From positions 1-32,868 of the forward strand of contig WOVA01000038.1 in NCBI GenBank assembly GCA_009773155.1: a stretch of 32,868 nt of DNA, in the 5' to 3' direction. Positions 28,264 through 32,651 of this stretch are shown piece after piece (within the stretch, counting starts at the first letter, position 1; each line of letters begins with the position of its first letter). Below the pieces are notes generated by a model. It was not told the DNA's origin and made no database searches. It was given only the letters and a program-made list of their open reading frames with translations. Source of the DNA: Elusimicrobiota bacterium (lineage in GTDB: Bacteria; Elusimicrobiota; Elusimicrobia; Elusimicrobiales; UBA9959). The translations under genes and the position numbers were made by a program.

Positions 28264-29283
28264 CTACTTGAACAGCTTGCGGAATGACGCTATCTCCATC
28301 GGGTGGAGTTCGTAGTCGCCCTTCGCCCGGCGTGCCAGGCCTATACTCCCCCCCTGTACCAGGCTGAGCGCCGCGTACTGCGCCTCGCTCGGATTGCAGA
28401 GCAGCTGCACCACCCCCGTGCCGTCGGAGGTCTCAGGCTTGTCCACCTTCAGCACCGACACGTTCTGCAGTATCGTGGCCGTCACCTTCTCCTTGCGGTC
28501 CTCGGCCATCACGGCGTCGAAGGTCACAAGCATGTCCACGCGGTCGCCGGGCGAGAGGAACAGCACCTGCGAACCGCTCAGCGGCAGACTGACGCCCCGG
28601 TAGCCCGGCAGCAGCCTGGTCTCGGCCTCGTAGCGGGCGGCCGTCTTCACCTCCGCCGCCGCGCCGGTCAGAGCGGAGAAGGCTCCGCGCGAGGAGAACA
28701 GGGCGTCGCCGATGCCCTTATAAGCCCCCTCGATGTCGTTTTCGGCCATCGCCGCGGTGGCCGCGTCGAGCCCTTTCAGGGCTTTGCCGAAGGAGGTCAG
28801 CACCCCGCTGGCGCGGCCGGCGAGAGTCTTCTCCATCCCTGACTTGTAGAGGCGGTCGACCCCCATTATCAGGCGCAACCGGATATCGCCGTACTCTTTT
28901 TCCAGCTCCAGCGGGGAAACGGCTTTCTCCGCCGCGCCCGGGACAGTCCGCCCGGTCTTATCGGCGAACTCGTAGAGTATGGAGAAGGCGTCCTGCCAGA
29001 GCCGGGCTTCGCTCAGCTCCCCCTCCTCCGGGTCCTTCCAGGCCTTACTTTCCAGCATCGCGGGCCTGGCCGTCTCAAGCCAGCCCGGTATTTCCAGTTT
29101 CCCGCGGCGGCCGGAGCAGGAAGTCTGCCGGGACCTGACCGCGGAGGTCAGCTCCGGCGCCAGCCAGTAATAGGCCGTCTGCATCTCCTCGGCCGCGCAG
29201 CGGACCTCCTCCGGAGCGGGCGCCGTCGGAGAGGCCGCGGCCGCCGGGAGCGACATCGCCATAAGCACGATAAGCGTCTTCAT
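28264..29283 (-). CDS. Exported protein with C-terminal CpaB/RcpC-like domain
   Basis: A 339-aa protein with a signal peptide (MKTLIVLMAMSLPAAAAS). Residues about 20-210 are mainly helical, with two cysteines (VRCAAEEM, QTSCSGRRGK). From about 215 the protein matches its 152-aa neighbour nearly throughout: GYRG, LSPGDRVDMLVTF, VTATILQNVSVLKV, NPSEAQYAALSLVQGG and the end LHPMEIASFRKLFK. The pattern (GDRVDVLVTF ... ILQNV ... EAQ..ALA..QG) is that of the RcpC/CpaB domain of Flp-pilus assembly. No other pilus gene is near. The ribosome site is GGAGG. It is the last gene of the sigma-factor unit and may be an envelope structural or sensory component. Confidence 0.75.
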   Translation of the reverse strand: MKTLIVLMAMSLPAAAASPTAPAPEEVRCAAEEMQTAYYWLAPELTSAVRSRQTSCSGRRGKLEIPGWLETARPAMLESKAWKDPEEGELSEARLWQDAFSILYEFADKTGRTVPGAAEKAVSPLELEKEYGDIRLRLIMGVDRLYKSGMEKTLAGRASGVLTSFGKALKGLDAATAAMAENDIEGAYKGIGDALFSSRGAFSALTGAAAEVKTAARYEAETRLLPGYRGVSLPLSGSQVLFLSPGDRVDMLVTFDAVMAEDRKEKVTATILQNVSVLKVDKPETSDGTGVVQLLCNPSEAQYAALSLVQGGSIGLARRAKGDYELHPMEIASFRKLFK

Positions 29284-29295
29284 ATATCCTCCGTT

Positions 29296-29754
29296 CTACT
29301 TTATCAGCCTGCGGAAGCTGGCCATCTCCATCGGGTGCATCTCCAGGTCGCCGGGCGCGCGCACCACGATATGCACCATCTTCCCCTGCGCCACGCTGAG
29401 CGCCGCGTACTGCGCCTCGTTGGGATTGAGCAGCAGTTCGATAACGCCGCCGCCCTCGCGTTTGGCCGGCTTGAGGACATTGACCACCACGACGTTCTGC
29501 AGTATCGTGGCGGTGACGGTCTCTTTTGAATCCTTATCCGAATCCTTGCCGGTCTTCGCGGCGAACGTGACAAGGACATCCACCCTGTCGCCCTTCTTCA
29601 CGTAGAGCAGCTGGTCCCAGCCCACCGTTATCGGCGTGCCGCGATAGCCGGCCGCCACCTCCCCCCTCGTTTTCTCCACCTTCCCGGTCGCGCCCAGCCC
29701 GGCGGGCGCCGCGGCCGCGGCGGCCAGCAGCGCCGCCACAATTATCTTCCTCAT
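29296..29754 (-). CDS. Exported CpaB/RcpC-like domain protein
   Basis: A 152-aa protein with a signal peptide (MRKIIVAALLAAAAAAPAGL). The mature part is almost only one RcpC-like domain: GYRGTPITVGWDQLLYVKKG, DRVDVLVTFAA, VTATILQNVVVVNV, NPNEAQYAALSVAQGK and the end MHPMEMASFRRLIK. Compared with CpaB it lacks the SAF domain and the membrane anchor. The frame opens at 29778, overlapping the previous stop, but GGAGGAGGT precedes the ATG at 29754, which also gives a proper signal peptide. It is a tandem paralogue of the next gene's C-terminal half, probably by duplication. Confidence 0.75.
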   Translation of the reverse strand: MRKIIVAALLAAAAAAPAGLGATGKVEKTRGEVAAGYRGTPITVGWDQLLYVKKGDRVDVLVTFAAKTGKDSDKDSKETVTATILQNVVVVNVLKPAKREGGGVIELLLNPNEAQYAALSVAQGKMVHIVVRAPGDLEMHPMEMASFRRLIK

Positions 29755-29774
29755 AAGACCTCCTCCTCCGCTCA

Positions 29775-30437
29775 TCATATCACCCTTCTCTCGAAAAGTT
29801 CTTCGTGCGAGGTAACCCGCCTCTCTATTATGAGCACCGCGCCGTCGGTCTCCATGACCAGGTCGGTCCCCCCGTCCACTTTCACCTCGCGGGCCGCGGC
29901 CGTGACGATGGGGGAGCCGGGTCCGGCGGCGGCGATAGGGAACGACTCCAGCGGCTCACCCCTGGGCGCCGCCATCGGGATGGAAGCGAAAATCTGTCCG
30001 CCGGCGGACGGGCGCGCGGCGGCGGGACCGGCGATAAAGACGCGCGGCGGCGGAGGCAGCGCCGGGCGGGCGGGCGCCGCATCTTTGACGGACGCCGGCA
30101 GCGACGCCGTCGGCGCGGGCGGCAGCGGCGCGCGGGCCGGCTGGCGCACGACCTGAGTGACGAGCAGAAGCAGGCAGGCCGCGGCAAAGAGCACCTTGAA
30201 AGCGGCCGCGTTCACCGCCTCGGCGACGAGGACCAGCAATCCTCCACCTTCGTTTTCCCCGGTCAGCCTGGCGCGCAGCTCTTCCCGGACGCGCGAATCA
30301 GCGCTGAAGTCCGCGGCGGCCAGGACGCCGGCCGCCCGGATCAGCCCCTCGTCGTGGCTGGGAAAAGGCGGACGCCCGTCCCGCAGCAGGACGTCCAGCT
30401 CCCTGTTGAAAAGCTCCGCCGCCTCGTTCTCGCTCAT
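29775..30437 (-). CDS. Putative membrane anti-sigma factor
   Basis: A 220-aa protein whose start overlaps the sigma-factor stop by 4 nt. Residues 1-63 are charged and helical (MSENEAAELFNRELDVLLRD), suitable for binding a sigma factor in the cytoplasm. A hydrophobic segment follows (about 66-96, ending FKVLFAAACLLLLVTQVV), then a Pro/Ala-rich stretch and a small ordered C-terminus (DLVMETDGAVLIIERRV) outside the membrane. There is no HxxxCxxC zinc motif. The anti-sigma role is inferred from gene order and topology. The ending points to a signal-sensing or partner-binding tail. Confidence 0.65.
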   Translation of the reverse strand: MSENEAAELFNRELDVLLRDGRPPFPSHDEGLIRAAGVLAAADFSADSRVREELRARLTGENEGGGLLVLVAEAVNAAAFKVLFAAACLLLLVTQVVRQPARAPLPPAPTASLPASVKDAAPARPALPPPPRVFIAGPAAARPSAGGQIFASIPMAAPRGEPLESFPIAAAGPGSPIVTAAAREVKVDGGTDLVMETDGAVLIIERRVTSHEELFERRVI

Positions 30438-30934
30438 ATCGCCTTGCTCCCGCCCAGCAGTTCCTGCATCCTCTTCACCGCGCGGTAGATTATTATCCCG
30501 ACATTCCCCTCGGCCAGACCGGTCAGCGCCGCTATCTCCCTGTTGGTCATCCCCGACGAGAATTTCAGCGCCATGATGTCCCTCGACCTCTCGTCCAGCG
30601 CGGCCGCCGCCGCCAGCACCCTCTCCCGCTCCTCGCGGCCTTCCAGGATATCCTCGGCCCTGGGATCGCCGCCCGGCCTCTCGAAGACCCCGTCCAGTGG
30701 GACTTCCGCCCTGCGGCCCCTGTCCCTGCCCCAGTCCGCGACCGCGTTGCGCGCTATTCCGAAGAGCCAGGCCTGCTCGGGGCCTTTCGCCGGGTCGTAG
30801 GCGGCCGACCTGCCCAGCGCCGCCTCGAAGACCTTCGCCGTTATGTCGTCGGCGGCGTCGATCAGGCGCACGCGGTAACGCACGTAGTTATAGACCTTGT
30901 CGAAATAGCGGTCGTAGATATCGGCGAAATCCAT
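30434..30934 (-). CDS. ECF-family RNA polymerase sigma factor
   Basis: A 166-aa sigma factor with region 2 (FADIYDRYFDKVYNYVRYRV, then DAADDITAKVFEAAL and AWLFGIARNAVADWGR for -10 binding) and region 4 (LDERSRDIMALKFSSGMTNR, EIAALTGLAEGNVGIIIYRAV as the -35-binding helix-turn-helix). Regions 1 and 3 are absent, as expected for the extracytoplasmic-function group. It is first in a four-gene minus-strand unit with a membrane partner and two exported RcpC-like proteins, so it probably answers an envelope signal and may control this unit. No obvious self-type promoter was identified upstream. Confidence 0.9.
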   Translation of the reverse strand: MDFADIYDRYFDKVYNYVRYRVRLIDAADDITAKVFEAALGRSAAYDPAKGPEQAWLFGIARNAVADWGRDRGRRAEVPLDGVFERPGGDPRAEDILEGREERERVLAAAAALDERSRDIMALKFSSGMTNREIAALTGLAEGNVGIIIYRAVKRMQELLGGSKAI

Positions 30935-31074
30935 ACATGCGCGCGCCTCTACCCATGTATACGGCGCGGCAAGGAAAGTATTACAAAAAATCGGAGGTAT
31001 TGGGTAGGAAAACTATGAAGTGCCGGAGGGGCCTCACCACGAAAAAACTCCGCTCGCACACCGCAACCGAAAAT

Positions 31075-31100: not shown

Positions 31101-31215
31101 GGCCTGACAGCCCGGCGGGGGCGTCTCGGAGCCGCGAGCATCGTAAGCGCGAGCGGCGAGAGCCGAGGACCGACGCGCTATGCGCGCGAGTCCGTACCCC
31201 GCGGGCTGTCAGGCC
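31101..31215. repeat. Large nested hairpin element (possible structured RNA or terminator)
   Basis: Outer arms GGCCTGACAGCCCGGCGGGG (31101-31120) and its complement with one base missing (31197-31215) enclose 76 nt. Inside, CTCGG/CCGAG with GCCGC/GCGGC make one stem and GCGCGCTATGCGCGC-like bases make another, so a three-way junction is possible. It starts about 25 nt past the htrA stop and may end htrA transcription or be an independent repeat or small RNA. The CGCTATGCG core recalls the REP-like repeats at 3313 and 21759. Confidence 0.5.
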
Positions 31216-31239: not shown

Positions 31240-32634
31240 TTACCGCTGGGACTGGACGCTGAGGTACATCGGCTGGCCGTCGCGCACCAGGTCGAAGATT
31301 ACTCCCTCGCGCAGGTCCGCCCCAGTCGCCGCTTTCTTAAGCTCGGCCGCGCCGCGCACCGGCGACCGGTTTATTTCCTTTATCAGGTCCCCCTCGTGGA
31401 TATACCCGTAGAGCCTGGAATCGGGGCTGACACGGAGCACCTGGGCGCCGTCCCGTCCAACCCTTAGCTCTATCCCCTCCCAGGAAGCGTTGCCGGCTCC
31501 GACCCCGGCGATGCCGCGCGCGGGCTTGGCCGCCGCCAGCCCGGCCTCGGGCCGCTCGACCAGCGTAACGGAGGCCGACATCTCCCGGCCGTCGCGCAGG
31601 AAAATTATCTCGGCCCTGTCGCCGGGCCTCCGCGTATAGATGCGGTGTATCAGTTCCTCGTTGGTCTCCACCGGCGTGCCGTCGCAGGAAACGATGATGT
31701 CCCCGCGCCGGAACCCGGCATTCTCGGCCGGCGAACCCGCGATAACCTCGTTGATTATCCCGCCGACCCGGCCCCTGACGCCCAGCCGCGCCATCATCAC
31801 CGGGTCCATCTGCAGCAGCGAGACCCCCAGCCAGCCGCGCCTCACCCGCCGCCCGGCCTTTACGTCGGCGAACACTCTGGCGGCCTCTGCGGCCGGCACC
31901 GCGTAGCTCATCCCGGCGAAGGCGCCCGAAGGCGAGATTATCGCCGTGTTTATCCCTATCACATCGCCGTCGATATCGAGCAGGGCGCCGCCGGAATTAC
32001 CCTGGTTTATGGCCGCGTCGGTCTGCAGCAGGTTGGAATAATTGCGCCCCTCTATCTTGAGCGAGACGCCGCGCGCCGAAACTATGCCGGCCGTGACGGT
32101 CTGCCGCAGCCCGAAAGGAAAGCCCACCGCTATGGCCCAGTCGCCGATCCTGGGCGTCTTCTCAGCCGCCAGCCGCAGGTACGGGAACTTCTCCGCGGAG
32201 CGCATCTTGAGCACCGCCAGGTCCATCTCGGCGTCGCCGCCCACGGGTTCGGCTATAAAAACCCTCTCCCTCCCCTTGTCGCTGAGCATCTTGACCTTTA
32301 TGGCCTTGGCCCCCTCAACCACGTGGTAATTGGTAAGGATATAGCCCTCCGGGTCAACTATCACGCCGGACCCGACGCCCTGTATATCGTAGCGGTAGAC
32401 GCGCTCCGTCGGCATCATGTAGCCGAAGAAGTACTCCGGCTCCACCACCCGGGCGGAGCCCTCGCGTACCACCTCGATGCTGACCACGGCCTTGCCGCCC
32501 CTGGCGGCGGCGTCGTTGAAGGCTTTCTGCAGCGACCGTGCCGCGTCGGGGACACCCTGCGGCATGGTGTCCCCTGCCGGGACGGAGGCCGGAAGCACTA
32601 ATAATAAGGAAAGAAGGAAAGAGGCTGTTTTCAT
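31240..32634 (-). CDS. HtrA/DegP-family periplasmic serine protease with two PDZ domains
   Basis: A 464-aa exported protease for envelope protein quality control. It has a signal peptide (MKTASFLLSLLLVLPASVPA), a trypsin-like domain with His104 (TNYHVVEG), Asp138 (EMDLAVLK) and Ser214 (QGNSGGALLD), then PDZ1 (GWLGVSLLQM ... RRGDIIVSCDG) and a more divergent PDZ2 (ELRVGRDGAQVLRVSPDS, EGDLIKEINRSP). An ATG two codons earlier sits only 1 nt from AAGGAG, so the second ATG, 7 nt from it, is chosen. Residues 21-29 just after the predicted cleavage site come from a GGGGACA palindrome. Its promoter has five tandem repeats upstream. Confidence 0.92.
   Translation of the reverse strand: MKTASFLLSLLLVLPASVPAGDTMPQGVPDAARSLQKAFNDAAARGGKAVVSIEVVREGSARVVEPEYFFGYMMPTERVYRYDIQGVGSGVIVDPEGYILTNYHVVEGAKAIKVKMLSDKGRERVFIAEPVGGDAEMDLAVLKMRSAEKFPYLRLAAEKTPRIGDWAIAVGFPFGLRQTVTAGIVSARGVSLKIEGRNYSNLLQTDAAINQGNSGGALLDIDGDVIGINTAIISPSGAFAGMSYAVPAAEAARVFADVKAGRRVRRGWLGVSLLQMDPVMMARLGVRGRVGGIINEVIAGSPAENAGFRRGDIIVSCDGTPVETNEELIHRIYTRRPGDRAEIIFLRDGREMSASVTLVERPEAGLAAAKPARGIAGVGAGNASWEGIELRVGRDGAQVLRVSPDSRLYGYIHEGDLIKEINRSPVRGAAELKKAATGADLREGVIFDLVRDGQPMYLSVQSQR
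32548..32574. repeat. GGGGACA/TGTCCCC palindrome inside htrA
   Basis: A 27-nt hairpin with 12-bp arms (one mismatch), almost the same as the copy at 4277-4303. It is read in frame as GDTMPQGVP at the start of mature HtrA. Confidence 0.8.
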
Positions 32635-32651
32635 AAGCATACTCCTTGAAA

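Follow-up and report, generated by a model that had tools for sequence, protein, structure and literature searches.

The window, a stretch of 32,868 nucleotides that makes up the entire contig C68 of an Elusimicrobiota genome (2.76-Mb, 93 contigs), carries on its minus strand four consecutive open reading frames (ORFs; 30934-28264) encoding an ECF sigma factor (SIG; 166 aa, 30434..30934), an anti-sigma-like membrane protein (ASF; 220 aa, 29775..30437) and two proteins referred to here as B (160 aa, 29296..29778) and A (339 aa, 28264..29283). The SIG/ASF and ASF/B junctions are overlaps of 4 bp each, and B is separated from A by 12 bp; the start of B is more likely at 29754, where a Shine-Dalgarno sequence is found. 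A codon model supports the coding potential of the four ORFs and their products are 30-90% identical to counterparts in relatives, so that these are not chance ORFs; codon use, this identity and the conservation of the cassette, described below, rule out miscalls as well. Thus, the four coupled minus-strand genes recognized in an earlier interpretation made from the letters of the DNA (the sequence-only reading) are all present at matching positions. Directly upstream of SIG lies a predicted sigma-dependent autoregulatory promoter, TGTAATACTTT-N11-CGTA (30960..30985, minus strand), with a motif conserved at this place that the sequence-only reading did not note, and further upstream is the gene for a DegP/HtrA (Do) protease (31240..32640, minus strand; TIGR02037, 3.3e-106). 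The latter was considered as a conserved partner protease of the cassette and rejected because it is adjacent solely in the window's genus. Between the HtrA gene and the promoter there is a perfect 14-bp inverted repeat, GGCCTGACAGCCCG / CGGGCTGTCAGGCC (31101-31215), with arms ~90 bp apart, possibly a repeat element.

SIG contains sigma factor regions 2 and 4 (Pfam Sigma70_r2, 2e-9; Sigma70_r4_2, 1.9e-9) and lacks regions 1 and 3, the domain content of an ECF sigma factor. It is BldN-like, with a TIGR02952 match (7e-36) that lies under the curated cut-off of that model, and its PDB match, 6dxo, is an ECF sigma as well. ASF, which is coupled to SIG by the 4-bp overlap and present in every cassette, begins with predicted cytoplasmic helices bearing the motif ADFSxxSxIRExLRxRL, followed by its one hydrophobic segment, at 75 (transmembrane [TM] region near 75-97), a low-complexity linker and a small C-terminal beta domain (179-216). 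The AF2 model of ASF is of low confidence (pLDDT 65), no match was found among profiled families or solved folds, and an RsbN-like identity, for which neither profile nor fold gave a match, was discarded. In a distant cassette whose sigma differs (L081), the ASF position is occupied by a zf-HC2 anti-sigma (PF13490). Adjacency and topology are consistent with ASF being the anti-sigma of SIG, and the pairing of a sigma factor with a membrane partner proposed by the sequence-only reading is supported as a probable one.

Both A and B have a predicted N-terminal export signal and no further TM segment, in agreement with the earlier description of the two proteins as exported. The RcpC profile (PF16976) matches A above its cut-off (4.5e-9) and B 1 bit below it (2.7e-6), and was found in 27/27 proteins of the A alignment; TIGR03177 scores 34 and 31 for the cassette D2 proteins, against a cut-off of 71. 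No SAF domain was detected in either protein by Pfam profile search. B consists of the signal peptide and an RcpC/CpaB D2 domain, whereas A has a TadB-N-like helical domain (~21-209), a linker, a CpaB D2 domain (226-320) and the C-terminal HPMEIASFRKLFK block. A Foldseek search with the AF2 monomer model of A (pLDDT 83.6) retrieved a subunit of the RcpC alignment ring (9gzr; E 8.9e-5, prob 1.0) as the sole significant PDB match, and nothing similar to the N-terminal domain was found among solved structures. The RcpC/CpaB homology of both exported proteins, first suggested from sequence, is therefore borne out by profiles and by fold.

The likely source of these domains is encoded in the same genome. 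Searching it with A or B led to a complete tad locus on another contig, C85 (L006:499-10296 in G000), comprising genes for flp, TadE, CpaB (SAF + RcpC), a short secretin, a TadZ-CpaF fusion, TadB, TadC and a TPR protein; Tad systems have been reported in Elusimicrobia (PMC6668835). The locus has its own peculiarities: TadZ is fused to the CpaF ATPase, the secretin has 241 aa, and CpaB is devoid of the C-terminal hairpin. TadB of this locus carries an exported domain of ~200 residues ahead of the first platform TM segment, and A residues 3-183 align with it at 37% identity (BLASTP, E 5e-39), including a conserved Cys pair, while residues 226-339 align with the genome's own CpaB at 51% identity (E 6e-35). 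Accordingly, the N-terminal part of A, taken in the sequence-only reading for a new helical domain, is not new to the organism but corresponds to TadB-N. Judged by these alignments, A is a fusion of TadB-N with CpaB-D2 and B is CpaB-D2 alone. A differs from the Elusimicrobiota TadB platform protein, with which it shares the helical domain and the cysteine pair, in lacking the T2SSF domain and the TM segments.

No Flp/Tad gene was found near the cassette in the window, and no tad gene in the cassette neighborhoods of any of >20 genomes; the survey of relatives placed no cassette within a tad locus. The earlier observation that no Flp pilus gene is nearby is therefore correct and extends to these genomes, but the cassette is not unrelated to a Tad pilus, as its domains derive from the Tad machine of the same genome. 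That the cassette is a piece of a normal tad locus can be dismissed, as it has no pilin, ATPase, TadB/TadC or secretin and a separate complete locus exists. In a quick tree of D2 domains, with some forks weakly supported, those of the cassettes are all apart from CpaB and form two groups, A and B; this agrees with the duplication of the RcpC-like domain proposed earlier. The extra short protein of L110, which has lost the N-domain, falls with A. A similarly quick tree of N-domains, also with some weak forks, separates the N-domains of A from those of TadB without exception. These trees point to a fusion and a duplication that are both old, rather than to recent debris, and descent of A and B from Tad parts is strongly indicated by the sequence comparisons. 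Another reshuffling of Tad parts was observed in L084 (10600-11118), where the SAF (D1) portion of CpaB and the C-terminal unit of the TPR protein from the tad locus are fused in a 172-aa ORF, close to a short D2-only ORF.

The C-terminal block HPMExASFRxLxK, noted earlier as common to A and B, was confirmed and forms the C-terminus of the genome's own CpaB as well. Elusimicrobiota CpaB, A and B each end right after this block (HPMExASFRKLxK) and hence are without the hairpin that, in Pseudomonas aeruginosa RcpC, touches the secretin N-domain (PMC12307814). The RcpC of P. aeruginosa is a dodecamer, and linker L3, which follows D2, is required for ring formation (PMC12307814). In A, the C-terminal block combines the highest conservation of any stretch (0.86) with the lowest pLDDT (43), as would fit an intermolecular contact or a segment that becomes ordered only in the oligomer. 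Overall, A and B resemble RcpC/CpaB (PF16976, TIGR03177; 9gzr, PMC12307814) in D2 sequence and fold and share the C-terminal block of the own-genome CpaB, but differ in the absence of the TM anchor, the D1/SAF domain and the C-terminal beta-hairpin and in being encoded away from the tad locus.

The order SIG-ASF-B-A is kept in 22 Elusimicrobiota genomes; in further genomes, contig ends truncate three cassettes, and another four comprise SIG-ASF-B while lacking a full-length A. B is thus the invariant companion of SIG-ASF in every cassette, even where A has been lost. The surroundings vary: HtrA is upstream in the window's genus alone, several genera have hydrogenase genes and HypA/Mrp nearby, and others have quite different genes. 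Full-length A-type proteins were found in 11/199 genomes across the phylum, 10/11 of them from one family, and some copies have no adjoining sigma gene. A-type proteins (~30-34% identical) lacking a sigma gene alongside were observed in L078, L079, L118, L133 and L152. A scan of 84,980 species genomes, which reaches fairly close relatives only, gave matches in Elusimicrobiota and unnamed bins only, barring one bin titled Micrarchaeota archaeon (L128). This bin contains an Elusimicrobiota-type tad fragment and is probably a binning error or contamination. Within the reach of the scan, the cassette is so far restricted to Elusimicrobiota.

The motif TGTAATACTTT-N11-CGTA precedes SIG in 25/25 cassettes, the L125 copy having one mismatch, which falls in its -35 part; the bases following GTAATAC vary in a few of these promoters, and shuffled windows gave 0.01 matches to the core pattern. 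This -35/-10-type promoter, directly upstream of SIG and conserved in orthologues, is the predicted arrangement of an autoregulated operon. In the 2.76-Mb genome, the window promoter is the sole site with 0 mismatches, and since this only perfect site precedes the SIG operon, the exported proteins are the predicted output of the sigma factor. The next-best site (C35:67822), with 2 mismatches and within a protein-coding gene, was taken as a chance occurrence rather than a second target. Across 41 genomes, there are 14 full GTAATACTTT-N11-CGTA sites, 11 of which lie before SIG-family genes, two before the gene of a further exported protein, C, and one before the exported target of a sibling sigma. 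Regulation of the cassette by SIG is thus strongly indicated by this pattern of predicted sites. In most lineages, protein C (~220-230 aa, predicted to be exported, with no Pfam match) is encoded by a fifth operon gene, located after A. The C gene of the window's genus (L206:4072-4755 and L207:5449-6132) has moved next to secA, and in G001 and G002 it is preceded there by a separate promoter copy; in the window's genome, this place retains only a 27-residue remnant (L261:5082-5162) and no promoter. In L106, SIG is preceded by the gene of an additional D2 protein, which has a core site to itself. The motif was absent from every tad locus examined, so that control of the tad locus by this sigma was set aside and any control of Tad would be at the protein level.

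In relatives, the D2 domain of B is preceded by other domains. One N-terminal addition matches the TPR protein of the tad locus in its last TPR unit (45%, E 4e-16), and additions of this type are also present in L090, L095, L096, L100 and L103; B of L107 (7389-8348) has secretin/TonB short N-terminal (STN) domains (PF07660, 3.8e-11) ahead of D2, and that of L106 (7254-8348) a chagasin domain (PF09394; chagasin-type inhibitor, I42). Across the set, the D2 partners TadB-N, tad TPR and secretin-type N-domains are the neighbors of CpaB in the machine. The soluble CpaB D2 fusions may therefore be read as a natural Rosetta-stone record of contacts among the extracytoplasmic Tad parts, predicting that D2 meets the exported domain of TadB, the TPR protein and the secretin N-domains.

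The switch itself extends beyond the cassette. Sister lineages of Elusimicrobiales have sibling sigmas, 29-48% identical to SIG, accompanied by a short anti-sigma carrying a similar motif and mostly preceded by TGTRATACTTT-N11-CRTA; in some of them, R stands in place of A as the fourth base and the -10 element reads CRTA. Their exported products are FFEWKSGDY repeat proteins, thioredoxin-like proteins and large fused anti-sigmas. The sibling loci (L046-L056, L065, L076, L208, L209) give the impression of a single autoregulated switch that is portable and has had its effectors exchanged. Compared with the cassette, the sibling operons (L046-L056, L076, L208, L209) have a related sigma, the anti-sigma motif, in most cases the promoter, and one or more exported effectors downstream, but these effectors are not Tad parts. 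The cassette likewise resembles BldN/RsbN-type ECF pairs in its BldN-family-like sigma (TIGR02952, 6dxo), adjacent one-TM partner and predicted autoregulatory promoter, and differs from them in that ASF is unrelated to solved or profiled anti-sigmas, the outputs are Tad-derived and exported, and the regulon is nearly a single operon. A literature search for soluble CpaB/TadB fusions or a comparable sigma operon found nothing, in keeping with the earlier statement that no such system was known to have been described. However, SIG, ASF and the promoter belong, as one branch, to a broader Elusimicrobiales ECF family whose other members have other exported outputs, and the supposed new system is better described as an ECF switch that carries a new set of effectors: what is new here is the placement of Tad-derived effectors on an ECF/anti-sigma operon, and the switch is general.

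These observations suggest a function, which we consider about as probable as its negation: an autoregulated ECF switch would produce soluble, exported mimics of Tad domains that modify or block the Tad machine. Upon an envelope signal sensed by its periplasmic tail, ASF would release SIG, which would transcribe its own operon from TGTAATACTTT-N11-CGTA; B and A, and in most relatives the third exported protein, C, would thereby be made in a self-amplified burst. In the periplasm, their presumed location, the D2 domains of A and B would bind CpaB, co-assembling with or capping its alignment ring, and the N-domain of A, a copy of the TadB exported domain, would meet the TadB platform; the Tad conduit would be retuned or shut off, whichever the direction of the effect may be. 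Co-assembly with the CpaB ring appears the most likely mode, given that the anchor and D1/SAF are missing, the ring-forming D2 domain and the C-terminal segment are kept, and A includes the TadB copy. Regulation and ancestry are the well-supported parts of this proposal, and the action on the Tad machine is presumed. We would also put forward, with rather less confidence and below an even chance, the stronger form in which a dedicated self-amplifying sigma yields soluble mimics of the cell's own alignment ring and platform that insert into, or poison, the assembled machine.

Several lines of evidence bear on whether the effectors address Tad at all. That B's D2 is fused in relatives to tad TPR, secretin STN or chagasin domains favors a link to Tad over a generic domain. 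Against the mimic model, the exported products of the sibling sigmas have no relation to Tad, so that the switch is not Tad-specific and D2 could serve another purpose; co-occurrence of the cassette with tad loci says little, these loci being near-universal in the genomes concerned. The lack of a predicted site at the tad locus, the poor model of ASF and its want of a family match also count against it, and the zinc anti-sigma found at the ASF position belongs to a distant cassette with another sigma. A somewhat unlikely reading is that the D2 and TadB-N folds have been reused, independently of Tad, as generic periplasmic binding or scaffold domains in an envelope-stress response. Consistent with such reuse are the unrelated products under a similar sigma and promoter in sister lineages, the early split of the D2 family from CpaB, and two more D2-only proteins encoded beside other ECF sigmas (L080, L081), one of them with a canonical zinc-finger anti-sigma. 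It is difficult, though, to explain in this way why D2, TadB-N, tad TPR and secretin STN recur in a small set of proteins outside a Tad/secretin context, and why the ring-associated C-terminal block is kept.

A and B could instead be ligands of the periplasmic tail of ASF that report the state of Tad, which would make the operon a feedback sensor rather than a pilus modifier: when Tad parts are missing or jammed, A and B that are otherwise bound by CpaB or TadB would be free to alter ASF. The small conserved beta domain of ASF outside the membrane, the constant adjacency of B to ASF, with B retained when A is lost, and a self-contained regulon close to a single target are all compatible with this relay, but the exported proteins that accompany the sibling sigmas and their similar anti-sigmas are of quite other kinds, and B is thus no general sensing part; we consider it unlikely. 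Finally, A and B might be displaced or decaying tad genes, gene-fusion debris lying by chance beside an unrelated sigma operon, as the A-type fusions without a sigma gene in L078, L079, L118 and L152 could suggest. This has hardly any probability: the gene order, strictly kept in 22 genomes and in several settings, the intact frames, the A and B clades and the shared promoter speak against it, and the conservation data refute a chance association.

Tad pili are common, and the periplasmic conduit of the Tad pilus was solved only in 2025-26; to our knowledge, little is known of the switching of these pili after assembly. If the mimic model is true, a type IV filament would be controlled after its assembly by parts of itself that the cell secretes as soluble proteins of the cassette. 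SIG, a regulator with a nearly unique and easily recognized promoter in a poorly studied phylum, makes this question directly testable.
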